Positions 23,386 to 60,952 of a stretch of DNA of 64,000 nt are shown piece by piece. The DNA lies in assembly GCA_001310415.1 (NCBI GenBank), contig BAXE01000017.1, positions 1 to 64,000 of the forward strand, written 5' to 3'. The first letter of the stretch is position 1, and every line of letters begins with the position of its first letter. This stretch comes from Enterovibrio sp. JCM 19048. Lineage in GTDB: Bacteria > Pseudomonadota > Gammaproteobacteria > Enterobacterales > Vibrionaceae. Position numbers and translations under genes: made by a program. The notes beneath the pieces are model-generated. The model ran no database searches. It had not been told where the DNA came from and was given only the letters and a program-made list of their open reading frames with translations.

Positions 23386-23405
23386 TTTCTCCCGCGTGAA
23401 CCTTT

Positions 23406-23673
23406 CTAGGGTCTGTTGACCTTTGGTGGTTAAATTTTGTTCTAGCCATAAGCGTTTTAGGCGCGGCGAGGTGTGTGCCGCCTAGTTATTCTAAGCAAAT
23501 ACACCTCAACAAAGCATAAAACGCTTAGGGCAGAACTTCGGGCAGTGTTTGTGGGGAATTTCTGCTGTGTTATCGGCTTCTCATGTAGGCTAGCTACACA
23601 TCGAAGCCTCTGCCTTGCATAAAATCCCCACAAACTGCTGCAAAAATCATCATCAAAGGTCAACAGACCCTAG
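23406..23673. mobile_element. MITE-like non-coding element with perfect terminal inverted repeats
   Basis: A 268-bp stretch begins CTAGGGTCTGTTGACCTTTG and ends with its exact reverse complement. CTAG at each tip fits a YTAR-type target duplication, as in the IS5 subgroup, though CTAG is self-complementary and could be part of the repeat. Inside are further inverted pairs: TAAGCGTTTTA/TAAAACGCTTA (23449-23459, 23517-23527), TTTGTGGGGA/TCCCCACAAA (23548-23557, 23625-23634) and a central GGCTTC...GAAGCC hairpin (23575-23608). There is no credible transposase, so it would need one supplied in trans. Its right tip provides the stop codon of the ketoreductase gene. Confidence 0.85.
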
Positions 23674-24406
23674 ATAATCCCACCATTAACCGAAATCACC
23701 TGGCGGGTAATGTAGCCCGCATTGTCTGACATCAGATAGGCGACCAATCCAGCCACTTCTTCCGGCTTGCCGAGGCGGGACATCGGCACCTGGGGCATGA
23801 CATGGGCTTTGGTCTGTTCGTCCACCATGCCGGTATCAATCAGCCTGGCGCAACACAGTTGACCGTGATCTTGCGAGAGGCTAACTCCAGTGCCAGCGCT
23901 TTGGTTGCCCCGATAATCCCCGCTTTCGCTGCGCTGTAATTGGTCTGGCCGCGGTTTCCCATCATGCCGGATACCGACGCCATGGTGACAATGCGCCCGC
24001 CCTGACGGCGTTTGATCATCGGCAGGATGCACGGATGCAGGACGTTGTAAAAACTGTCGAGGTTGGTGTGTACCACGCCATCCCAGGCGTCGCTGCTCAT
24101 GGCAGGAAAGGCGGTATCAGCGGTGACACCTGCGTTATTGACCACGCCGTAGTAAGCGCCATGTTCGGCGATATCGTTTTCGATGACGGTTTGGCATTGC
24201 GCTCTGTCTGCAATATCAAAGGTGATGAGTCGGGCGTGGCTGCCATGTTCAGCAATCAGCGTCTGGGTTTCTTCTGCGCCTTTCCTGTCCCGGCCATAGT
24301 GCACCACAAGGGGGAAACCTGCTTTGGCCAGCTCCAGCGCAATGGCGCGGCCAATGCCTTTACTGGCACCTGTCACCAGAATATCTCGTTGTGAGTTGTC
24401 ATCCAT
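23670..24406 (-). CDS. 3-oxoacyl-ACP reductase (FabG/ApeQ-like, frameshifted)
   Basis: Short-chain dehydrogenase that would reduce the 3-oxoacyl-ACP intermediate. It has the NAD(P) motif TGASKGIGRA, the NNAG motif, catalytic Ser in MASVSGMMG, and the Tyr/Lys pair in YSAAKAG. A deletion near 23846 shifts the last 60 residues (LIDTGMVDE... to NGGII). The total is about 245 residues. It is the last gene of the minus-strand cluster. Its TAG stop is formed by the CTAG tip of the MITE, so the natural end may have been altered. It overlaps the upstream dehydratase by eight bases. Confidence 0.85.
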
Positions 24407-24870
24407 TTTCAGTCACCTCCTGTTTTGCCATCTCGGCGAGTTTTTCCTGGGTCGGCACATAGGTATTGAGTTGCGCTCTAGCAACCTCTTCATCGTCGAT
24501 AAATATGGTGCAATCAAACACCGCCATACCTGCGTTTTCGAGCACTTTTGCCGCTTTGATATCCAGCGTTTGTCCACTAAGGAAACTTGCCCGCTGCGCC
24601 TGATAGCGGCGGCTGCCAAGTAGAAAGCCAACCTGTGGTGGAAGGTGAGCTTTTTGGGCGTGATAACCCGCCCAGGCTGCGACGGATTGCGCATGATCTC
24701 TAAACCCACCCACCCAGGCACAGCATTGATTGCCGGGTCGAAAAACAGATTTTCACGCTCGATAGTGGCGCGGCAATGCACTGAGTCATCACCGACACTC
24801 ACGAGGCTGTCAATCAGCACCATAGGCGCTTTGTGGGCAGGATGTCCTGCACTGAAGGTAACGGATTCAT
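24399..24870 (-). CDS. 3-hydroxyacyl-ACP dehydratase-like hot-dog protein (ApeP-like, frameshifted)
   Basis: A hot-dog protein of about 156 residues, related to FabZ/FabA-type dehydratases of aryl-polyene clusters. After restoring a C near 24838 the start reads MNPLPSVQDILPHKAPMVLID, with the catalytic-type histidine after L-P. A second deletion near 24694 separates GWVGLEIM from AQSVAAWAGYHAQ. The C-terminus ends EMAKQEVTENG. The ATG overlaps the ketosynthase stop (ATGA at 24867-24870). It would dehydrate the 3-hydroxy intermediate to a trans-2-enoyl chain, leaving the double bonds in place because no enoyl reductase is encoded here. Confidence 0.8.
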
Positions 24871-26070
24871 AGTTTTCCCAAAATCAGCGAGACATTGTTG
24901 CCGCCAAAGGCAAATGAGTTACTCAAAATGGCGTGTCCTTTCAGTGACTCCCCGCGTGTTGCCAGGCGGATTGGGGCAATCTCAGGATCCCGTGACTGCT
25001 GGTGGATGGAGACTGGCAGTGGAAGGCCGTGGCTGAGGAGGTGCCAGCAAATGGCGGCTTCAATGGCGCTTGCGGCGCCAGTGTGTGGCCGGTTAAGGGT
25101 TTGGTGGAACTGACCGGCACGTTTTCACCCAGAACGCGGAATATAGCCTTGGACTCCATGGCATCGTTCAGTGGTGTCGAGGTGCCGTGAGCATTGACAT
25201 AAGCGATGTCTGCGGCAGCCAGGCCGGCATCTGCCAGTGCGTTGCGCATGGCAACCTCGGCGCCCAGACCTTCAGGGTGGGGGGCGGAAATGTGGTGCGC
25301 ATCGGAACTGTCTCCCGCCCCTAACAAGGCAATGGCCTCCGGTGCATCAGGCCGTTCAAGGGAGAGCAACATAAAAGCGGCAGCTTCCCCGATATTGATG
25401 CCATCACGCTCATCGCTGAACGGTTTACACAATCCGCTGGAAACCGAATCGAGCCCGAAAAAGCCATTCAAGGTCAGGTTGCACAGGGTGTCTGCACCGC
25501 CCACAATCACAGCGTCCGCCAGCCCTGAACGTAGAAGACGTTTGGCACTGAGAAATACCCGCCCGCTTGATGAGCAGGCTGTGGACACCACATAAGCTGG
25601 GCCGGTTACGTCAAAGTAGTCCGCAATGAAGTCAGACAAGTTGTTCAGTTGCTGCTGGTAATAGTTGTATTCACTGGGTAGTTCACCCTCTGCTTGATAG
25701 CTTTTCAGCGCATCTTCACCATCGGCAATGCCGGATGTGCTTGAGCCAACAATGACAGCGACGCGATCGGCACCATAGGCGGTCTTGGCTTGCTCAACGG
25801 CATCAGAAATTTGCAGCAGTGCCGAGAGAGCCAGCCGGTTGTTGCGGGTTTGCTGGTGGCTGAATGAATCGGCAATGTCTGGCAGTTCATCTGTTACCCG
25901 CCAACGTTGACAGTCAGTCCATTGCTGAGGGTAAAGGGCGCACCTGACATCCCTTTGCCAATGCCTGAAATCAGACTGTGGTGGATGTCGTCATGGGTCA
26001 AGCCCAAAGCCGAGTGCGAACCACAGGCTTGGATATAAACAGGCTGTGGGTGATGGGTTGAATCCTTCAT
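24867..26070 (-). CDS. 3-oxoacyl-ACP synthase II-like ketosynthase (ApeO-like, frameshifted)
   Basis: A condensing enzyme of about 400 residues with the full Cys-His-His triad: STACSSSG, NAHGTSTPLND and KPLTGHTLA. Reading starts MKDSTHHPQPVYIQACG and ends SFAFGGNNVSLILGKL. Deletions near 25920 and 25070 split it into three pieces. It would elongate the chain from malonyl-ACP. It lies between the ammonia-lyase and the dehydratase and is translationally coupled to the latter. Confidence 0.85.
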
Positions 26071-26154
26071 AGGCGAAATTCCCTGTACGTCGAGAACAAA
26101 TCACCACCCTCAGCACGGTAATTGCGTACCGAGGGGGTATTGCTAAACCTGTAA

Positions 26155-27717
26155 TCAGACTTCGCGATTGTCTGGATACAGCGGCCAGTGCTGGGTCTGG
26201 ATGCTGGCGACGAAACGGCGCAGATCCTGCTCCAGTGGACGGTCCTCAATCACCACATCAAACTCACGGGTCACTTGCTTAGTCATTTCTTTTAGCGCCG
26301 GACTGAAGTGGTTGAAGTCCAGCTCACCACTGCGAAGGCGAAGCTGCAGCGCCTGAGTGGAGGCCAGCAGGCTCGCTGCTGTCACCTGTTCGGTCAGTTG
26401 CAATACGCGCAGGCAATCGCGGGCGGCAATGGTGCCCATGCTGACCTTGTCCTGGTTGTGACATTCGGTGGAGCGGGAGAAAACGCTCGCAGGCATGGTG
26501 TGTTTCAGCGCTTCTGCTGTCCACGCAGAGATACCGATTTGTACCGCCTTAAAGCCGTGGTTGATCGGTTTACGGCTGCCTTCAGCGCCGGTCAGGTTAA
26601 ACGGCAGGCCATTGTTGAACTTGTAATCCATCAGCTGCGCCATCTGGCGGTCGAGCAGGTCGGCGATATTGGCAATGGCGGTTTTAAGGCTGTCCATCAC
26701 CATCGCGATGTGTCCGCCGTAAAAATGCCCACCGTGCAGCACGCGCTCATTTTCACCGTCGATGATTGGGTTGTCGTTAGCACTGTTGAGTTCGTTCTCG
26801 ATCATCTGGCGCGCCCACGGCAAGGTATCCTGCAAGACACCAATCACGTGTGGGGCACAGCGCAGCGAGTAGCGATCCTGCAGGCGGTCACTGTTGCGCG
26901 GTGGCTTGTCTGCCTGCAAATCGTCACGCAGCCATTGGGCAATTTGTTGTTGGCCAAGGTGAGGTTTTACTGCAAACAAAGCCTCGTCAAAGTGGAAGTC
27001 ATTGCCATGCATGGCGAGCGATACCATGGCCGTGATGCGGGTGGAAAGCTGGGCCAGATACTCAGCGCGTTTGAATGCCAGACAGGCCAGCGCCGTCATT
27101 ACTGAGGTTCCGTTCATCAGCGCTAGCCCTTCTTTCGGCTTCAGGCGGATAGGTTTGATGCCCAGCTCTCTGAATACGTCAGCAGTCTGGCGGATTTCAC
27201 CTTTGTAAATCACTTCACGTTCGCCAATCAGTGCCGCAGCAACGTATGACAGTGGAGTAAGGTCGCCGCTTGCGCCCACCGAGCCTTCCTGGGGAATGCG
27301 CGGAGAAATATCGTGGTTGATCAGAGTCACCAACTGGTTGAGCAATTCCATGCTGACACCGGATACGCCCTGGGTGAGGGAGTTCAGGCGGGTTGCCAGT
27401 ACGGCGCGACTTTGCATAGCGTCCAGGTTCTCACCCAGACCACAGCCGTGGAAACGTGTCAGGTGAAGGGGAAGGTCGTGCACAAGAGAAGGGGGGATAC
27501 TCACTGTGCAGGAGTCACCATAGCCTGTGGTCACCCCATAGATGACGCCTTCTTCCTGAAGCAAGCGCTCAAGGAATCGTGAGCCTTTGGTAATGCGCGC
27601 CGAAAATTCGTCTGAAGGATTGAGCTGTGCGCGGCTGCCGCCGGCTATGGCAGCAACGGATTCTATGGTGAGTCGTTCGCTACCGAAAACGATGGTGCTA
27701 TCTGAGTGGGGATTCAT
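26155..27717 (-). CDS. MIO-dependent aromatic amino acid ammonia-lyase (HAL/TAL/PAL family)
   Basis: An intact 520-residue lyase. The Ala-Ser-Gly triad that cyclises to the MIO cofactor is at residues 149-151 (GSVGASGDLTPLSY), preceded by the Tyr-containing loop GVIYGVTTGYGDS (about 57-69). The substrate-selectivity pair is Phe89-His90 (LTRFHGCGLG), unlike the Ser-His I recall for HutH or the His-Leu of bacterial TAL. Seated among ketosynthase, ACP and ligase genes and far from hut genes, it probably deaminates tyrosine or phenylalanine to coumarate or cinnamate as the aryl starter. Histidine cannot be ruled out. Confidence 0.88.
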   Translation of the reverse strand: MNPHSDSTIVFGSERLTIESVAAIAGGSRAQLNPSDEFSARITKGSRFLERLLQEEGVIYGVTTGYGDSCTVSIPPSLVHDLPLHLTRFHGCGLGENLDAMQSRAVLATRLNSLTQGVSGVSMELLNQLVTLINHDISPRIPQEGSVGASGDLTPLSYVAAALIGEREVIYKGEIRQTADVFRELGIKPIRLKPKEGLALMNGTSVMTALACLAFKRAEYLAQLSTRITAMVSLAMHGNDFHFDEALFAVKPHLGQQQIAQWLRDDLQADKPPRNSDRLQDRYSLRCAPHVIGVLQDTLPWARQMIENELNSANDNPIIDGENERVLHGGHFYGGHIAMVMDSLKTAIANIADLLDRQMAQLMDYKFNNGLPFNLTGAEGSRKPINHGFKAVQIGISAWTAEALKHTMPASVFSRSTECHNQDKVSMGTIAARDCLRVLQLTEQVTAASLLASTQALQLRLRSGELDFNHFSPALKEMTKQVTREFDVVIEDRPLEQDLRRFVASIQTQHWPLYPDNREV

Positions 27718-27773
27718 ATTTTCTACTCGTTAACTGACGTAAATAAAACAAGAAATGGTTTTTTCTTAATGAG

Positions 27774-28120
27774 TTAAGCGCTTTGTTTTAGCAGGATGCG
27801 CCCGGATGAATGCGCTCGGTTCCCTGAGCGGAAGCTGAACCCGAGTTTTTCTTTCTCCGGCGCCCATTCCAGGGTCAGCGTCACTGTGCTGCCCGGCAGA
27901 ATGGGATCCTGGAATTTGATGGCGTCCATACCGGCAAACTCACCGTCAACGGCCAGATACTGGCGGGCATAGCGCACAGCAAAATCAATTTGTGCCACCC
28001 GGGCAGAAGGGGGAAATCAGGGAAGTGGCCTTTAAACACATCTAACTGGGCATCCATTCTCACGGTCAGTGTTGTGCCGCTTGGTGACGCTTCTTCCTGA
28101 AGCAAAGTGGGAGTTCGCAT
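27774..28120 (-). CDS. hot-dog thioester dehydratase (ApeI-like, frameshifted)
   Basis: A protein of about 115 residues (MRTPTLLQEEASPSGTTL...) with FKGHFPDFPLLPG, the FabZ-type active-site strand including H-F-P, then VAQIDFAVRYARQYL in the next frame. One G is missing near 28003 (CCCGGGTGG for CCCGGGGTGG). It is shorter than FabZ. In aryl-polyene clusters a similar small hot-dog protein (ApeI) is a second dehydratase. It follows the AMP ligase by 22 bp. Confidence 0.78.
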
Positions 28121-28142
28121 CGTTATCCTTCTCGATGTTGGG

Positions 28143-29497
28143 TTAGTGCTGGGTAAACAACGCTTCAATCGCCGGTACTTGACGCTTCCCCTGCGTGTTT
28201 TGTGGGATAGCATCAACAAAGCGCCATTGCCTTGGGATGGCTACGGGCTCCAGCCAGTCACGGAGATGTTGCCGCAAAGCCAGTTTGAACCTGGCCGCGC
28301 CGTTGTCGGTGAGCGCTTGCTGACCTTTGGCTGAGAGAACGACTGCTGCGGCGATGGTCTGGCGTTCGTTTTCCTGTCGAAGCAGTGAAAAAGCGTCGGT
28401 TACCCAAGGGCTTTGGCAAAGTCGCTGTTCCACTTCAGCCAGTGATACCCGCTTCTCTTCGATTTTGACGATACGGTCAGCACGCCTTTCAGGGTGAAGG
28501 TGTGCCCGTCGCCAAATTCGCAGATGTCGGCAGTCTGATACCAGGTTTCCGGGTCGATGTAAGGGGACAGGATCGCCAGGCAGCTTTCCTTGTCGAGTTG
28601 TGCATCAATGCCCTGGAAGAATTGCCATGACGTGTTCTCGTGAGTTTGCTGGCGAAATCCGATCCCGCCGGTTTCCGTACTGCCATATACCTCTAGGGGC
28701 AATATCCCTAAAAGCTGTCTATTTTGCTGCGCCGCGGCAAAAGGCAGGGGGCCACCGGACGAAAAGATAGTGCGGTATTGCCCGCCGCCTTGCTCGGTGA
28801 TCCGCTTAAGCAGGGCAGGGCTGCTTACCAATACCTGATTTTTGTCAGCGCGGTTGCAGACCTGTTCAGGGTAAACAAGATCGCGGCTGTGAAATGGCCT
28901 GCCCGCGGACAATGGCCATAACACGCGAAACAGCAGGCCATAGATATGCTGGTGGGAAACCGTACTTTGAATTTGAGTGCCCGCCAACAATGTTCCCCAT
29001 TGGCATTCAAGCTCACACAGCTCTGCCTGCAACTGCGCCAGAGTTTTGCTGACCGCTTTGGGGGAGCCGCTGGAGCCTGAGGTGAAAAGGGTCAAATCCA
29101 GCGAGGTAATCTCTTCCAGTAGCGCTTCGCCATAATCGGGTACCTTCTCCAATGGCAGGGAAAGACACGGTAAATGTGTCAGATCATCACTTCTTTCATC
29201 GTGCAGCAGCGCATCGAAGTGCGGCGAGAGTTCATTGAGCGCACCTTGCTGGAGGTTGCCGGGTAAGACGATTGCCTTGCCTGCATGGGCACAGGCGAAA
29301 AATGCTGTGGCAAACAGGTAACTGTCTTCAAACGCCAACGCCCAGCGCTGAGATGGCGAGGCTGATAGCGCTTGCGCCAACTGGGTGACGTGTTGGATAA
29401 ACGTCTCCCGGGTAATTTCCTGTCTGTCGCGGATAGCAACGCATTGTTGTGCCTGCCCTGACAGGCAGAGCGAGGCAAGTGGGGCAAAGTGTTTCAA
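28143..29497 (-). CDS. AMP-dependent acyl/aryl ligase (ApeH-like, frameshifted)
   Basis: An ANL-superfamily enzyme of about 451 residues that would activate the aryl acid as an adenylate and load it onto CoA or the carrier protein. The ATP loop TSGSSGSPKAV and the YGSTETGGI motif are clear. A deletion near 28485 separates FTLKG from RADRIVKIEEKRVSLAEVE, the hinge and C-terminal domain. The start is TTG 29497 with GGGAAG upstream, in frame and 28 bp after the ACP stop; no better ATG precedes it. Confidence 0.83.
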
Positions 29498-29524
29498 TTT
29501 GCGGCTTCCCTGGATTGCTGGACG

Positions 29525-29785
29525 TTATTGCAGTCTGCTGGCAGAGATAAAGTCCGCCAGGCTGGCGACGGATGCAAAGTGGGTACGGGTGTTGCTGTCA
29601 TCTGCATCGAGAACAACGCCATACGCTTTGCGAAGCGCCAGACCCAGCTCTAGGGCATCAATCGAGTCCAGGCCGAGACCGTCATTAAAAAGTGGGTCCT
29701 GCGTTTCGATATCTTCCGGTGTCATATCTTCGAGGTTTAACGTTTCGATGATGAGCTTTTTAATTTCAAGGTGAAGTTCAGACAT
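29525..29785 (-). CDS. acyl carrier protein of the cluster
   Basis: An acidic 86-residue carrier with the phosphopantetheine site GLGLDSIDALELG (Ser about residue 42). The ATG at 29785 has GGAGAAAACC directly upstream. It is intact and single; full aryl-polyene clusters usually carry two ACPs. Primer and chain would be held here, after activation by AcpS (22985-23371) or another transferase. Confidence 0.9.
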   Translation of the reverse strand: MSELHLEIKKLIIETLNLEDMTPEDIETQDPLFNDGLGLDSIDALELGLALRKAYGVVLDADDSNTRTHFASVASLADFISASRLQ

Positions 29786-29918
29786 GGTTTTCTCCATTAC
29801 CTAGCCAAAGAATATGTTTGTGAATAACAAGTCGGTGCGTTTTTGGAACTGATTAAATAATTTTTCAGCGCCTTGTTTGTTTTTTATGAGGCTTTTTATG
29901 TGCTGCTGATTTTTATTT

Positions 29919-30645
29919 TTACCTGCGATGTATTTTCCAGTCCCATTGCGTTCTTCCGGCAATGGAAAATGCGCGACTTTCCGTTAACCAGGAGGAATAA
30001 AAAACAGGGATTGAGGCAGCTTCGGATATGTTGGTGTGATTTTTTGCGCCTGCCGGGTTATTTCGATATCACGCCCTGCACTCAGTACCATGCCAATCGC
30101 GTAGGGCGCATCAGGGATGGCACATGGTGGCGGTAGATATCCGGCAATGACTCATCAAAGTCGATCACCAATACCCTGTGTTCTGGATGATCGTGTAAGT
30201 AGAGAAAGGCATCGAGCAGGGCGCAGTGAAATGAGTCTTCTCCGGCGGCGATTGAGTTGGCTGGAATGGCCTTTTTGGTTGCGATGGTGAAAAGCCCAGC
30301 AGCGGTATTGTGGACTGACTGGGAGAATGCAATCGGTGAGGCATCATCACCGGAAAGTACACTCAACAATAACGACAGGGTTCTTTGTATTTCACCGTGT
30401 TTACTGGAGAAAACGGTGTAATGAATCTCTTCTTTTTCTGAAAGCTCTGCGGCAACCTGAACCGCCAATTTGCTCAGGTTGCTCATTCTGCGGCGCATCG
30501 CAGGAGGAACTAAAGCGACTGCCGGAAAGTCAGGCTTTTGAAGTGACGGGCTTTTTTGCAATGCCCACACCATCCAGTCGGATTTATTTTCCAGCCCCGG
30601 TGAAAGTGCGTGAATCTTTGTGATGTTAAAGTGAATACTGCTCAT
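29919..30645 (-). CDS. ketosynthase-like chain-length factor (ApeC-like, Ketoacyl-synt_2; frameshifted)
   Basis: A protein of about 240 residues (MSSIHFNITKIHALSPGLENK...) resembling the short N-terminal-ketosynthase proteins of aryl-polyene and xanthomonadin clusters. The motif SVHNTAAGLFTIAT occupies the active-site loop but has Asn where the ketosynthase Cys would be, so it is probably a non-catalytic partner. Two shifts near 30100 and 29990 break it; the third frame supplies the family-like ending SWLTESRAFSIAGRTQWDW. It is the first gene of the minus-strand unit. Confidence 0.72.
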
Positions 30646-30969
30646 TGACTTATTCTTTAATCGCAAGCGTCATTTCATTCACAAAGTATTTAGTTGTTAA
30701 TTTTTGTCCATAAATAAGTATTGAGTTAAGAGTGAATTGGCGTAAATGCTACTGTTAAGTCTAATAATTACATCTTGTGATGTGTGGTGAGTCGGTTTTT
30801 TTTAAAATGAGCCGTGAGGGGGATTACTTTTTTGAAAGTAAATACGCGGGTGATGGAGAAAATAGACTACGCCACAGTGAAAATGTGTGATGGTGGTTCA
30901 GTAGGGCGTCTTTGTGACGAAACCAGAAGCGGTGACTGAGTTTGTCACCGCGTTTAGGATAGAGTCAGA
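30646..30969. other. gene-free AT-rich region upstream of the biosynthetic cluster
   Basis: About 324 bp with no credible ORF. It should carry the promoter of the cluster (minus strand). Visible features are a TTACTTT-TTTG-AAAGTAA palindrome at 30824-30841, possibly an operator, and a GCGGTGAC/GTCACCGC hairpin at 30929-30951 that may end barA transcription. Confidence 0.5.
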
Positions 30970-33710
30970 TCAGTCGTTTTCGTCGAGGTAGTGTGGCGCC
31001 TGATCGCGGATGTTCTGCATTTCATCCATCAGCTCAAAAAGCTCGGGTTCGATATCTTCGATGAACGCGCCCTGTTTGAGTTGGGTTTCCAGTTCATAAC
31101 AAAGTTTTTTCAGCCGCGGCACGCCGCTGTAGGCGCAGCTGCCATGCAGTTTATGAACCACAGGCCACAAATCCTCGGCTTCGCATCATCTATTGCGCGG
31201 TTCACCTTGTCTGTGACTTCATCAAAAGAGCGTACCAACATCTGCAGCATATCTTTAGCCAGATCGCTTTTGCCCGCCGCCTGCTTCATCGCAAGTGACC
31301 AGTCAATGCTAAGCGATTCGCCCACTTTGTTCGGTTTGATAAGCGGTGTCGTCGGCTGCACATCGCTGGCGTGGGGGTGGGTCCAATGATGTAACACCTG
31401 CTCCAGGATATGCTCTTCGATCGGCTTGGTCAGGTAGTCATCCATTCCCTCTCCCAGCAGGCGTTCCCGCTCGCCGGACATCGCATGTGCTGTTACCGCA
31501 ACCACCGGGGTATGCTGGTTAAGCGGCGTTTTGCGGATTTCCTTACAGGCGGTGACGCCGTCCATCTCCGGCATCTGGATATCCATCAAGATGAGATCGA
31601 ATTTCTGCGTCAGGGCACAGTTAACCGCATGTCGGCCATCAGAGGCAGCTACTACATTATCAACCCGCTCGGCAAGCAAGGCGGTAATCAGTTTGAGGTT
31701 GGCTGGGTTGTCATCCACGGCCATGACGGTGATAGGCACTTTGGTTGTTTGCGTCTCAACGACAGGTGGTAACAATGCAGGAGTCGCTTGGGCACCTTGG
31801 ATCAGCTCCACCAGTTTTCTCGTTGCAAGCGGTTTAGCCAGGCAGGCAGTTACCCCGGAAGCCAGCAGCGCTTCAGACAAAGCAAGCTCTGTGGTTGGCA
31901 GGCAGAAAATCACCTTATTACTGAACGCTTCTGCCGTTTAGCCAGTGTGATGAGCGCATTGTTATCCGGCACATCCGCGCATCCACACAAATCAGTACTG
32001 AGGAAACGGGGTCTGAGCTTTCAGGGAGCGCCGCAAAGCTATGGATGTCCAAAGGCAGGTTGCCAAGCGCTCGCCCATCATCTGACGGCTTTCTGTGTCC
32101 GGCTCGACAATCATCAGGGACTGGCCTTTGAGTGCCGCGCAGTCAACTGGCTGTACCAGAGGCAAGTCGGTCTGGATAAGCGTCAGGGTAAACCAGAAGG
32201 TCGAGCCTGGTGCAGTCGGCTGCTGAAACCGATGTCTCCGCCCATTTGCTGTACCAGTTTTGGGTGATCACCAGACCAAGACCGGTACCGCCATAGCGGC
32301 GGCTGATACTGGCATCGGCCTGACGGAATGCCTGGAACAACTGGGATTGCTGGCGCTCGGAAATACCGATACCGGTGTCGCGGATAATGAACTGCAGTTC
32401 CAGCCTTTCATCGCGCTGTTGCTTGAGATCGACGCTGACACTGATATTGCCACGTTCGGTAAATTTGGCTGCGTTACCAATCAGGTTAGTGAGTACTTGC
32501 TGGATACGCAGCGGGTCGCCGATCACACCAGCAGGGATACGTGGGTCGATACGGAGGTTGAGCTCCAGCCCCTTCTCGTGCGCCATCGGTGCCAACAGTC
32601 GCATCACTTCGTCCAGCGAGTCTTCAAAATCAAATGGGATATTTTCCAGCAGCAGTTTGCCGGCTTCCAGTTTCGAGAAATCCAGGATGTCGTTGATGAT
32701 GGTCAGCAGGTTATTGGCCGATTTTTCGATGGTCTGCAGATAGTCATGCTGGCTGCTGGAAAGCTGGGTTTTCAGCATCTGGCGGGTAAAGCCGATGACA
32801 CCGTTCAGCGGTGTACGCAGTTCGTGAGACATGTTGGCCAGAAATTCGGATTTCACCCGCGCTGCTTCCTGGGCATTTTTCTTGGCGATGTCGAGTTCCA
32901 CGTTCTGGATCTCTAGCTGCTCTAACGTTTCACGCAAATCGGAGGTCGCCTGATCGATGCTTTGTTGCATTTCCAGGTGGTATTCCGACAGGGAGATCGC
33001 CATGGCGTTGATCCCGTTTTTCAGCGTATCCAGTTCGCCCAGCAACTTGCCTTCAATCCGAACATCGAGATGCCCGCGTCGGATTCTGTCGATCATGCTT
33101 ATCATCTGCTTGATAGGAATTTCGACATCCTGCAACAGGCGGTAAGCAAAAAAGCCGGAGAGAATAATACCGAGGATAAGCACCACACCGGCGGAGATGA
33201 TCTCCTGATATTGCTTGAGTTTTACCGTGGAGAGATCCATCTCATGGTGATGTAGCCAATCGGCTGCTCAACGGCCAGCGTGTCGTGAATACCGGCAATC
33301 GCCCGGATCGGCGTGCGCAGCAGCAGGGTGTCCTTGGTGCGGCTTATCTCCAGACTGTCCGGCAACGGCTGACCTGCGGGGATGGCCAACAGGTCGAGAT
33401 TGCGGTGGTAATTAGAGGTAACAAACAGCTCATTGTGGTCGTTAAACACCGCAATACTGCGGATATACTGACTTTGCTGCCGGTGGGTGTGGCCAATCAG
33501 GCGGCGCACACTTTCCCGGCTCTCGTTGGTGAGCCCGATTTCACTGGCGATGGCGAGCGGTTCAATGATGGCCTGACCGGCAACGGAAAGCTGTTGCTCC
33601 AGCTCCTGATAGCGGTTGGTGATGAAATACGCGCTCAGCAAAATGCCGATAATGAGCGTCGGGGCAAGGGTGAGGGTGATTACTCTGGCGCGAAGTCCGT
33701 ATTTGGTCAT
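30970..33710 (-). CDS. barA: hybrid sensor histidine kinase BarA/VarS (frameshifted)
   Basis: Tripartite membrane kinase of about 910 residues that phosphorylates UvrY/VarA and so controls the Csr small RNAs. Order: TM1 ([19 protein letters not shown]), sensor region, TM2 ([20 protein letters not shown]), HAMP, H-box [12 protein letters not shown] and G boxes ([24 protein letters not shown]), a degenerate receiver, a receiver with [13 protein letters not shown] and an Hpt domain ([10 protein letters not shown]). Frameshifts lie near 33240, 32250, 31930 and 31185. It is divergent from rlmD, as in other gamma-proteobacteria. Confidence 0.9.
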
Positions 33711-55693: not shown

Positions 55694-56645
55694 GTGACAG
55701 CCCTTTCAATTCAGTTGAAAATATTAGTAATCATCTCAGTACTGGGATTATTGTCTGCGTGTTCGGTATCAAGCCTGCACCTGTGTCCAGTGTCGGGCCG
55801 GATTACAATCAAGTTGAACGGGGGAGTTACCGCGGAAGCTTCTATGAGGTGCAAAAAGGCGACACACTGTACTATATCGCTTACATCACTGACCGTGATG
55901 TGAATGACATTATTGATGCAAATAAGCTGTCTAAACCTTACACCATTTATCCCGGGCAAAAGCTGAACCTGTGGCGGGAAAAATATGTCCCGCCAAGTTA
56001 CGGGAAGAAAGGCAAGCCAGAAGCGGCGGTGGTGGTGGCTGCAGCATCGACAGCACCGGTTGTTGTGGCGGCTTCTAAACCGGTAGCGGTTTCAGGATCT
56101 TCTGCTAAGACCGCGAAGGATAATCAAAAATACGTGTCGCAAAATAAGTCGGGATCAACATCTCAAATTAAGAAAAATGTTGAACAGCAAAAAGTGAAGG
56201 AGTACAGTCGAGCTGTAACAAAAAGTAAACCACCTGTTGATAAACCTATAAATAAATCGTCTGATACCCCTGCCAAAATAAATTGGCAATGGCCGTCAAG
56301 CGGTCGGGTGATATCAGGGTTTTCAAGCTCAGAGCTTGGTAACAAAGGCATTGATATTGCCGGTAAACGTGGGCAGCAAATCAATGCATCAGCAGATGGT
56401 AAAGTGGTGTATGCAGGTAACGCGCTTCGTGGATACGGTAATTTAATCATTATTAAACACAACGATGATTACCTGAGCGCATACGCACACAATGATCGTA
56501 TATTTGTTTCAGAGCGCCAGAGTGTTAAAAAAGGGCAGAAAATAGCTCAATGGGAAGTTCTGGTACTAACAGTGTTCGGTTGCATTTTGAGATTCGCTAT
56601 AAAGGAAAATCGGTAAACCCTTTGAGGTATCTACCCAAACGGTAA
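55694..56645 (+). CDS. nlpD: lipoprotein NlpD, LysM and degenerate M23 domains (frameshifted)
   Basis: Outer-membrane lipoprotein that activates the amidase AmiC at septation. A signal peptide ends in lipobox LLSAC (near residue 23), then a LysM domain ([19 protein letters not shown]), a low-complexity Lys/Ser linker, and a LytM domain with GNKGIDIAG, where Asn replaces the metal-ligand His, in keeping with a non-catalytic activator. Shifts near 55783 and 56552 interrupt it; the end is YLPKR at 56645. The start is GTG 55694. The rpoS promoter is normally inside nlpD. Confidence 0.88.
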
Positions 56646-56699
56646 ACCGGGACAGATTTTGTTGTACTGTCTTGCTGCTACGCCAAATCGGGAGGCGCT

Positions 56700-57080
56700 A
56701 TGAGTCAGAATAATACTGCAAAAAAAGTCGACGACATGATGGTTGAAGACGTCGAAATGGAGCAAATCGAGCTTGAGAATGAAGAAGAGACGATTGAAGA
56801 GGCTGAAGAGTCCATATCGTTTGCTGCTTCTTCTAAAGCCCTTGATGCAACCCAGCTTTACCTAAGCGAAATAGGCTATTCGCCTTTGCTTACGGCTGAA
56901 GAAGAAGTGCTGTATGCGCGCCGTGCCCTGCGTGGTGATGAAGCTGCCCGCAAGCGAATGATCGAGAGTAACCTTCGATTAGTGGTGAAGATTTCCCGCC
57001 GTTATTCAAACCGTGGTCTGGCTTTGAGTTTTTCTGCCAGCCACTCAGCGCTTGCCCATGCTAAAGACAGGCCGTCATAA
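56700..57080 (+). pseudogene. rpoS: RNA polymerase sigma factor RpoS, N-terminal third only, joined to antisense mutS
   Basis: The start [20 protein letters not shown], region 1.2 ([21 protein letters not shown]) and the start of region 2 ([20 protein letters not shown]) are authentic RpoS up to LAL (about residue 109). From 57020-57026 the sequence switches to the reverse strand of mutS and the frame runs 18 foreign residues to a stop at 57080. Regions 2.3-4.2, needed for promoter melting and -35 binding, are absent from this window. Either a deletion removed the 3' ends of both convergent genes or the assembly is wrong. Confidence 0.9.
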
Positions 57081-59181
57081 GTGCTGGTGCCCCGGCCAAT
57101 CTCATCCATCAATACCAGACTGTTCTCTGTCGCGTTGTGAAGGATGTTCGCAGTTTCTGTCATCTCTACCATAAAGGTTGAGCGGCCAGACGCTAAATCA
57201 TCCGATGCGCCGATACGGGTGAAGATACGGTCGACCGGGCCCAGTGTGACAGACTCTGCTGGCACATAAGAACCAATGTGGGCCATCAGGGTGATCAGCG
57301 CAGTCTGGCGCATGTAGGTCGATTTACCGCCCATGTTTGGCCCTGTGATGATCAGCATACGGCGATCCGGGCTCAACGAAGTTGGGTTGGCGATAAAGGG
57401 TGCATCCAGCACCTGTTCAACCACAGGGTGACGACCACCGGCAATGGCGATGCCACGCTCTGATGTCAATGTTGGACGGCAATAACCCAGTGACTCTGCA
57501 CGCTCGGCAAGGTTTGCCAGTACATCCAGTGTCGAGAGTGCTTCTGCCGCTTTTTGCAGTTGTTCCAGATGGGGCAGTAGCTTATCAAACAGCTCTTCCC
57601 ACAGTTTTTTCTCCAACGCCAATGCCTTGGATTTGGAGTTCAGCACTTTGTCTTCGTGCTCTTTTAATTCAGGAATGATGTAGCGTTCAGCATTTTTCAG
57701 CGTTTGGCGTCGCACATAGTAAGGTGGCACCAGGTGCTCTGACCACGGCTGACCTGAATATAAAAACCATGGACGGAGTTGAAACCGACTTTCAGGGTAT
57801 CGATGTCATGGCGCTCACGCTCACGGATTTCCAACTCTTCGAGGAAGCGGGTAGCGCCGTCAGCCAGATCGCGCCACTCATCCAGTTCGGCGTTGTAGCG
57901 GGGGCAATCACACCACCGTCACGAATAACCACTGGTGGCGTTTCTACAATGGCATGCTCAAGCAGCGCGGTCAGCTCAGGCATTGGCATGCTGGCCGTTT
58001 TTAGCGGTGCGATGGACTCGTCCTGCACTTCCTCCAACAGGCATTCAATCTCCGGCAGTTGTTGCAGCGCGCCGCGTAGTCTCGCCATGTCACGCGGGCG
58101 TGCTGAACGCAGTGCCAGACGTGCAGGATTCGCTCCATATCGCCCACAGGTCGCAATGCTGATGCCAATTCCACGTACAGGCCGGTATCTTTCAGCGCAG
58201 TAATGGCATCCAGGCGGCGGTTAACAATGGTGAAATCACGCATTGGTTGGTGCAGCCAGCGTTTTAGCATGCGGCTACCCATTGCTGTGGCAGTTTTATC
58301 CAGCACTGAGGCAACGGTATTTTCAAAGCCGCCGGAAAGGTTTTGAGTAAGCTCCAGATTACGGCGGGTGGCTGCATCCAGAATCACTGACTGGTCTTTA
58401 TTTTCTTTTACCAGCGAACGGATATGGGGCAGGGCGGTGCGCTGGGTATCTTTGACGTACTGCATCAGGCAACCAGCAGCGGCTAGTCCCAAAGAGCAGT
58501 TTTCTACGCCAAAGCCCACCAAATCACGGGTACCGAATTGTTGGTTTAACTGCTGTTTGGCGGTTTCCAGATCGAATTCCCAGATAGGACGGCGGCGGCT
58601 GCCTTTACACATTTCTGTTAACGCCGGGAAAGCAAAATCTTCCGGATAAAGCAACTCGGCCGGACGGGTGCGCTGAAGCTCTGCCTGCATTTCTTCTTCG
58701 CTGCCAGGTTCGCTCAGCAAAAAGCGGCCAGAGGTAATATCTAGGGTGGCATAGCCAAAGCGGTCGCCATTCGCGAAGATTGCGGCAATCAGGTTATCAA
58801 CACGTTCGTTAAGCAGGGCTTCATCCGAGACCGTGCCCGGTGTCACGATACGGACAACCTGACGTTCTACCGGCCTTTGCTGGTGGCCGGATCGCCAATT
58901 TGCTCACAAATCGCCACCGATTCTCCCAGCTGAACCAGACGGGCAAGGTAGCCTTCGACAGAATGGTAGGGAACGCCTGCCATCGGAATAGGTTCACCGG
59001 CCGAGGCGCCGCGTTTGGTCAGAGAGATATCAAGCAACTGTGATGCACGTTTGGCATCGTCGTAGAACAGCTCGTAAAAATCACCCATACGGTAGAAAAG
59101 CAGTTCTTCAGGATGCTGCGCTTTGATTTTCAGGTATTGCTGCATCATGGGCGTATGATTGGCTGTCGCTTGTACTGTCAC
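57002..59181 (-). pseudogene. mutS: DNA mismatch repair protein MutS, 3'-truncated and frameshifted
   Basis: Mismatch-recognition ATPase. The mismatch-binding motif [14 protein letters not shown], connector and clamp domains, Walker A ([13 protein letters not shown]) and Walker B ([12 protein letters not shown]) are present. Four one-base losses near 58862, 58125, 57905 and 57738 interrupt it. After [15 protein letters not shown] the sequence becomes antisense rpoS at 57020-57026, so the FATHYFEL histidine motif and C-terminal helix-turn-helix needed for ATPase dimerisation are gone, about 160 residues in all. The start is probably GTG 59181 (ATANHTPMM...), alternatively ATG 59148. Confidence 0.9.
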
Positions 59182-59293
59182 TATCTGGCCTGCAAAATTA
59201 CGATATAAGAAGAGGGAACAAGGATACGTGAATCGCGGTAAATGGGTAAAGTATCGATATCGCGATGGTGTGAATGAAATAACAGGGGATGAG

Positions 59294-59791
59294 ATGGAAC
59301 AACTGGTAAAGCTGGCCACGCAGGTTGGCGAAAAACTCAAAGAGAACGGGCAAACAGTGACGACCGCAGAGTCCTGCACTGGCGGTGGCATTGCTTATAT
59401 CCTGACAGAGGTTGCAGGAAGCTCGGCATGGTTTGAACGCGGTTTTGTGACATACAGTAATGAGGCGAAGCACGATCTGGTCGGTGTGTCGACAGCCACG
59501 CTGGAAGCCTATGGTGCGGTCAGCCAGCAGGTGGTTGCTGAAATGGCGACCGGTGCGCTGGAAGCTGCCAAGGCAGATTTTGCCCTTGCGGTGAGCGGCA
59601 TTGCGGGCCCAACCGGAGGGACGGAAGAAAAGCCGGTGGGGTTGGTCTGTTTTGGTTGGGCGACCCGTAATGGTGTGGTAACAGAAAAGTGTCTGTTTGA
59701 TGGAGACAGGCATGATATCCGCCGCAATACCATTGCCCACAGCCTTTGTCGTTTGCTCAGTTACTTGGAAAGCGAAAAACCGGAGCAGTAA
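59294..59791 (+). CDS. pncC: nicotinamide-nucleotide amidohydrolase PncC (CinA C-terminal family)
   Basis: Deamidates NMN to nicotinate mononucleotide for NAD recycling. It has an intact 165 residues. The motif [22 protein letters not shown] with the serine nucleophile, and [18 protein letters not shown], are family hallmarks. The ATG at 59294 begins the homology; upstream in-frame codons are not conserved. The mutS-pncC-recA-recX order is standard in vibrios and E. coli. Confidence 0.94.
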
Positions 59792-59847: not shown

Positions 59848-59902
59848 TACTTAACAGCAATTCACAGCTATCGAACGATTATTGCTTCCGTTGGAGAATC
59901 AA

Positions 59903-60952
59903 ATGGACGACAACAAACAGAAGGCGTTAGCCGCAGCCCTGGGTCAGATCGAAAAACAATTCGGTAAAGGTTCGATCATGCGTTTGGGTGACGACCGCAC
60001 GATGGACATTGAAACCGTATCAACCGGTTCGTTGTCTCTGGATATCGCGCTGGGCGCTGGTGGTCTGCCATACGGCCGTATTGTTGAAATCTATGGTCCT
60101 GAATCATCAGGTAAAACCACACTGACTCTGCAAGTCATTGCGGAAGCACAAAAGCAAGGCAAAACCTGTGCGTTTATCGATGCTGAGCACGCGCTGGACC
60201 CAGTCTATGCACGTAAACTGCATGTTGATATCGACAACCTGCTGGTATCTCAGCCAGACACCGGTGAGCAGGCGCTGGAAATCGCAGATGCCCTGACCCG
60301 CTCTGGTGCGGTTGACGTTATCATTATCGACTCCGTAGCGGCTTTGACGCCAAAAGCGGAAATCGAAGGTGAAATGGGCGACTCTCACATGGGTCTGCAG
60401 GCACGTATGCTGTCTCAGGCAATGCGTAAGCTGACTGCGAACATCAAAAACAGTAACACCCTGATGATCTTCATCAACCAGATCCGTATGAAGATCGGTG
60501 TGATGTTCGGTAACCCAGAAACCACTACCGGTGGTAACGCACTGAAATTCTACGCTTCTGTCCGTCTTGATATCCGCCGTATCGGCTCTATCAAAGAGGG
60601 TGATGAAGTGGTGGGTAACGATACCCGCGTGAAAGTGGTGAAAAACAAGATTGCGGCACCATTTAAACAAGCTGAATTCCAAATTATGTACGGTGAAGGT
60701 ATCAACCTTTACGGTGAGCTGATTGACCTGGGCGTGAAACACAAACTGGTTGAGAAAGCGGGTGCGTGGTACAGCTACAACGGCGACAAAATCGGCCAGG
60801 GTAAAGCGAACGCTTGTAAGTTCCTGAAAGAAAACCCTGAGATTGCGAAGGAGCTGGATAAGACCCTGCGTGATATGTTGCTGCAAAACAATGACACCCA
60901 AGACAAAGCGCAAGTTGAAGATGCAGAGCTACCTGAAGAGGAAGCATTCTGA
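59903..60952 (+). CDS. recA: recombinase RecA
   Basis: Strand-exchange ATPase and LexA co-protease. It has an intact 349 residues. Walker [17 protein letters not shown], Walker [20 protein letters not shown], loop L1 and the L2 region [20 protein letters not shown] are present, ending in an acidic tail (ELPEEEAF). The ATG at 59903 begins [21 protein letters not shown]. It is controlled by the SOS box upstream. Codon bias indicates high expression. Confidence 0.98.

Follow-up and report, generated by a model that had tools for sequence, protein, structure and literature searches.

Probable loss of both the rpoS and mutS 3′ ends through a single short-homology deletion in the draft genome of Enterovibrio sp. 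JCM 19048

Deletions affecting mutS, one of which reaches rpoS, have been described in Escherichia coli mutators from patients. In one of them (patient 11), a 17,491-bp deletion removes mutS and extends to rpoS, and in another (patient 17), a 1,478-bp deletion takes the last 399 nucleotides of mutS (PMC7845604). According to the same source, mutS truncations of such type are known to increase the mutation rate by more than two orders of magnitude, and the mutator may profit from coincidental selection with rpoS, since the latter was independently mutated in another isolate (PMC7845604). Furthermore, rpoS can become inactivated in storage such as stabs, and a mutator has been described in an archived strain (PMC5793043). 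A marine member of the genus Vibrio, Vibrio splendidus 12B01, carries a mobile element in mutS that leaves a scar in the gene on excision (PMC5296598). Among the papers listed in our searches on rpoS with mutS deletions, none mentions a joint rpoS-mutS deletion in Vibrionaceae in its title or abstract opening.

The locus described here lies in a window of 64,000 nucleotides, by which we mean the whole stretch of DNA analyzed, and consists of two convergent gene remnants between their usual neighbors:

55759..56642, plus strand: nlpD, the upstream neighbor of rpoS in its usual place, with one frame break near 56547.
56700..57080, plus strand: rpoS remnant, residues 1-109 authentic, followed by 17 codons from antisense mutS and a stop.
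57019..57026, no strand assigned: junction word TGGCTTTG, 7 bp as first noted and 8 bp with the T of the mutS side, which both parents could share.
57002..59181, minus strand: mutS remnant, with a GTG start at 59181, ending in five antisense-rpoS codons and a stop.
59294..59791, plus strand: neighbor on the far side of mutS, one open frame, which we take to be pncC (cinA C-terminal type).
59882..60952, plus strand: recA, a single open frame that served as the selection control.

The locus resembles that of patient 11 in that one deletion takes mutS and reaches rpoS. However, the deletion in patient 11 is far larger, mutS is wholly gone, and the case was built on compared isolates and a mutation-rate assay, whereas JCM 19048 is represented by one draft sequence (PMC7845604). 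With patient 17, it shares the extent of the mutS loss, since 399 nucleotides are close to the 131 codons missing in JCM 19048; the difference is that the 1,478-bp deletion is described for mutS, and the passages of PMC7845604 that deal with it do not state that it reaches rpoS. Loss in storage, finally, hits rpoS (PMC5793043), whereas in JCM 19048 the loss is coupled to mutS in one event.

It had been predicted that the rpoS frame is authentic to about residue 109, and the alignment with RpoS of a relative (G016) bears this out: residues 1-109 match at 92%, after which the frame runs through the 17 foreign codons to a stop codon at 57078-57080. The authentic part thus amounts to about 109 of 325 residues, and the last 216 are gone. 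Sigma70_r1_2 is the sole Pfam domain detected in the remnant; sigma regions 2, 3, and 4 are absent from it in the Pfam search, which found regions 1.2, 2, 3, and 4 in the G016 homolog. With the core-binding and promoter-binding regions missing and no other RpoS detected in the assembly, rpoS as assembled has the features of a loss-of-function variant, and from its domain content, the remaining RpoS head should be devoid of sigma factor function.

On the opposite strand, mutS had been expected to be authentic to just past Walker B. This agrees with the alignment, in which the authentic sequence extends to ...WLAEKLKA and continues with RPRFE to the stop at 57002. The loss begins with the MTLFATHYFEL motif and covers the last 131 codons. 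The motifs that we take to be Walker A, the signature, and Walker B are all retained. Nevertheless, the MutS_V domain is matched over only about 113 to 116 of its 188 positions (1-116), compared to 188/188 in the G016 homolog, and the match to the mutS1 model stops at position 710 of 840. As essential parts are missing and no second copy was detected in the assembly, the gene as assembled fits a mutS deletion. Upstream of the junction, mutS contains four additional one-base frame breaks, near 57736, 57900, 58122, and 58873. Its partner gene mutL is located on contig C11, in pieces spanning more than one frame.

The joint between the two genes is clean, collinear, and without foreign sequence; the flanking gene order is kept, and one junction trims both genes. 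We searched the region 56600-59400 against the JCM 19048 assembly and 30 relatives. JCM 19048 itself gave one unbroken match, and all 17 other genomes of the genus, the closest of which is 80-83% identical over this region, gave two matches each, the rpoS head and mutS, both of which stop no more than about 20 bases from the junction. A match crossing the rpoS/mutS junction was found in none of the 30 relatives. Base-by-base inspection of 14 of these 17 genomes placed the breakpoints 1138-1230 bp apart (1149-1154 bp in 8/14). The original prediction had put the loss at roughly 1.2 kb or more, and the relatives correct this to the spacing just given. It had also placed the switch within GGCTTTG (57020-57026). 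There is a word at this site, but it may be 8 bp long (57019-57026), since all 14 relatives have a T immediately before this word on the side of mutS. The exact 8-mer TGGCTTTG occurs in 1/14 relatives on the rpoS side and in 3/14 on the mutS side, so that the parental overlap is inferred from the relatives, and a shared word of up to 8 bp is plausible. If equal base frequencies are assumed, the chance of a shared word of at least 7 bp at random breakpoints is 3.8e-4, and that of at least 8 bp is 1e-4.

A junction of this kind may have more than one origin. In marine Vibrio, an excising mobile element in mutS leaves a scar (PMC5296598), and a regulated or programmed rearrangement, such as the element excision at mutS in Vibrio splendidus 12B01, could be envisaged for JCM 19048 as well. 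Such an origin is extremely improbable, as coding sequence of both rpoS and mutS is lost, no element is present at the junction, the break affects the 3′ end rather than the start of mutS, and a search of the assembly did not recover the missing DNA. The joint could also be an artefact, either a chimeric molecule or read, produced by a template switch at a short word during MDA or PCR, or a local misassembly where coverage was thin, with both genes intact in the organism. We consider this unlikely, although it is the explanation to be taken most seriously besides a deletion. More than 70% of the junctions of MDA chimeras have a complementarity of 2-21 nt, as the junction in JCM 19048 would; on the other hand, more than 85% of these chimeras are inversions with deletion, whereas the join in JCM 19048 is direct (PMC1855051). 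Moreover, the single event would have struck a gene pair whose joint loss has been documented in nature (PMC7845604).

If the locus were intact in the organism, reads from the intact locus should have been assembled, too. The original prediction had proposed to look for the missing halves of rpoS and mutS elsewhere in the genome; this search was run on the assembly and recovered neither, so the deletion was not refuted. The G016 counterpart of the deleted segment was not found elsewhere in the JCM 19048 assembly. Its best match there is 185 bp long with 69% identity and corresponds to rpoD on contig C27, followed by the two flanks, and the remaining matches are weak and short (E of 0.036 or more). 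MutS_V has one match in the assembly, the truncated one. The RpoS model has one match at an E-value of 1e-60 or better, at 2.1e-62, which is far under the cut-off and, judged by its score, presumably represents the frame-broken rpoD. Sigma70_r4 has 11 matches in the assembly, and among the five inspected, one is rpoD (C27), one is rpoE by its position (C17), those at C8:88104 and on C10 are 27% and 34-41% identical to RpoS, respectively, and the one at C1:191899 has no match to RpoS. A second copy of rpoS was rejected, since the top match to the deleted segment is rpoD, itself in two frames.

The quality of the assembly bears on all readings of the locus. Over the 77.7 kb of coding sequence that could be aligned on contig C17, which carries the locus, 83 one-base deletions stand against 5 one-base insertions, and 76 of the 83 deletions sit in runs of 1-3 bases. 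Frame changes or stops were flagged in 51 of 79 conserved genes of the contig compared to G016 (a few of the 51 being paralog matches), versus 5/79 in the control genome G008. Frame-broken genes include pyrG, rpoE, rnc, lepA, ispD, alaS, and ffh, as well as rpoD on another contig. Because essential genes cannot all be broken, the small frameshifts must be mostly sequencing errors, and the four breaks in the mutS remnant look like part of this assembly-wide error load. For rpoD (C27 4976-6819, L129), an essential gene that is in two frames, a sequencing error is most likely. On contig C17, about one base is missing per kb of conserved coding sequence, and any pseudogene called in the window is doubtful. 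The window also contains a variable region, 23400-31000, where about 7.6 kb face about 0.1 kb in G016 and where G008 matches in pieces only.

Loss of mismatch repair raises small indels, and the strong excess of one-base deletions over insertions could be taken as a sign that the lineage has long been an rpoS mutS double mutant in which the frameshifts are true mutator decay. This is very improbable, however. The breaks affect alaS, ispD, pyrG, rpoE, ffh, and rpoD; they sit in short runs of 1-3 bases, not in long runs; and protein identity is high on both sides of most of them. Mutator decay as the source of the frame breaks was rejected on the first two of these grounds. Selection on the remnants argues against a long-standing loss as well. 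The rpoS remnant has a pN/pS of 0.067-0.088 (107 codons, five relatives) compared to 0.079-0.097 in intact pairs, and the mutS remnant has a pN/pS of 0.041-0.068 (237 codons, five relatives) compared to 0.047-0.060, with four intact pairs per gene that all share one partner. The ranges of the remnants overlap those of the intact pairs, and the recA control behaves like the remnants. The test is blunt because dS is near saturation for both remnants. In the absence of relaxed selection, the loss is either recent or not real, since full constraint on both fragments is also what an artefact predicts.

The pervasive one-base deletions, which extend to essential genes, speak for a weak consensus and thereby for an artefact at the junction, too. 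Indeed, errors are denser around the rpoS/mutS locus: the interval of 49.0-59.3 kb, which was picked post hoc, makes up 9.3 of 76.0 kb and holds 22 of the 83 one-base deletions, about double the mean of the contig (p = 3e-4). This hints at thin read support around the junction and is our main ground for caution about the deletion.

If the assembly were prone to false joins, other genes should be cut in a similar way, and overlaps of 7-8 bp are too short for the joins that ordinary assemblers make. We surveyed 482 kb for truncations (all of C17, 200 kb of C1, and all of C8), which is 9% of the 5.27-Mb assembly, counting genes matched over a quarter or more of the protein of the relative in syntenic G016 DNA, so that wholly lost genes are invisible to the survey. 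Among the 283 genes surveyed, 144 match in more than one frame, and rpoS and mutS represent the only clean internal double truncation. Five further genes miss at least 40 residues; four are poor orthologs with an identity of 51-58%, and the fifth, on C8, has 92% identity and lacks the first 50 residues, which may reflect an overlong start in the relative. A general tendency of the assembly to false joins was therefore rejected for the 482 kb surveyed, and the uniqueness of the double truncation speaks against an artefact at this locus. Another sharp join is present on C1 at offset 109805, where 790 bp are missing compared to G016, one whole small ORF between two neighbors; it did not surface as a truncation in the survey.

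To place the locus in its family, we scanned 296 Vibrionaceae genomes, drawn evenly and including JCM 19048, with the RpoS model, which was over the cut-off in 284 of them. The 13 lowest by E-value were JCM 19048, G006, G041, G053, G061, G065, G125, G151, G185, G188, G244, G257, and G279; one of these counts as over the cut-off and was taken to be G244, whose score is nearest to it. MutS was scanned first in these 13 plus G253 and G016 and then in all 296 genomes, with loss counts that are lower bounds, since a truncated MutS may still score E = 0, as in G188, and since the counts draw on the match rows listed, which are a part of the total. A physical double loss that affects rpoS together with the mutS 3′ end is present in 4/296 genomes including JCM 19048, with four different endpoint pairs. 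What is new here is that three further genomes of the family, G185, G188, and G065, have lost rpoS and mutS sequence jointly: none has an RpoS match over the cut-off in its genome, and in each, the mutS of this locus lacks its 3′ part. In G185 (L208 10101-10110), nlpD is joined directly to mutS at about residue 522 of 865, without any rpoS. Compared to G211, its nearest relative in the comparison, in which nlpD, rpoS, and mutS are each in a single frame, this is a 2647-bp deletion at a common 4-bp word, ACTT. In G188 (L207 6074-7653), nlpD is cut at about residue 133 and mutS at about residue 753, with an IS66-family transposase between the two. In G065 (L209 8760-8800), mutS breaks off at about residue 786, where it meets pcm, which is also cut; mutS has an additional frame break, and nlpD or rpoS was not matched within the 18 kb of the locus examined. 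The three thus differ from JCM 19048 in the length of the word and of the deletion (G185), in the transposase (G188), and in reaching pcm (G065). G185 and G188 are three-contig genomes with a completeness score of 100%.

A broken, truncated, or unfound MutS was recorded in 5/12 low-RpoS genomes versus 4/284 others (p = 5e-6), a comparison that mixes the physical deletions with G041 and with G157, in which MutS had no match and which is 85% complete. In G041, nlpD, rpoS, mutS, and recA all contain frame breaks that resemble sequencing errors. Frame changes affect rpoS alone in G053, G061, G279, and G006 and both rpoS and mutS in G244, and the rpoS of G125 is cut by a contig end. Two genomes show other lesions of rpoS next to a mutS in one frame: in G257 (L214 4428-6808), a 2.4-kb insertion splits rpoS, and in the two-contig genome G151 (L213 6690-6696), rpoS has an internal gap of about 70 codons. 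In E. coli GN05064 and GN04979, IS1 is annotated beneath the nlpD-rpoS-mutS match.

The original prediction had left the choice between a real deletion and a false join at a short word. We favor the deletion because the missing halves were not recovered from the assembly, a short overlap is unusual for assemblers, and the pair is co-deleted in other genomes; it is not proven, because one-base errors pervade the assembly and are denser around the junction. A real and recent short-homology deletion of about 1.15 kb in the convergent rpoS and mutS genes is, in our judgment, the probable explanation. Its endpoints would be a pair of short direct repeats, up to TGGCTTTG, within the two genes, and alternative end joining or slippage during replication at the 7-8 bp word would account for it. 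In one step, both genes would have lost their 3′ ends, with RpoS shortened by its last 216 residues and MutS by its last 131. It would then exist in the organism and not just in one molecule or in the assembly. With a single genome, a state of the population and a single culture mutant are indistinguishable.

If the deletion is real, one small event has produced a mutator without the stationary-phase sigma factor. Such a cell would be deficient in mismatch repair as well as in the general stress response, and by analogy to published mutS truncations, a mutator phenotype is to be expected. The loss of rpoS may have been the selected part, and the mutator status would then have come along because the genes are neighbors. 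For the family, we tentatively suggest that the rpoS-mutS pair is a recurrent target of co-deletion, in which selection for rpoS loss, in culture or in a host, takes the 3′ end of mutS with it; this possibility we hold with some reserve. If it is true, gene order itself would make mutators by first-order selection. The double losses in three other genomes make it testable whether the adjacency of rpoS and mutS drags the mutation rate along under selection on the stress response.
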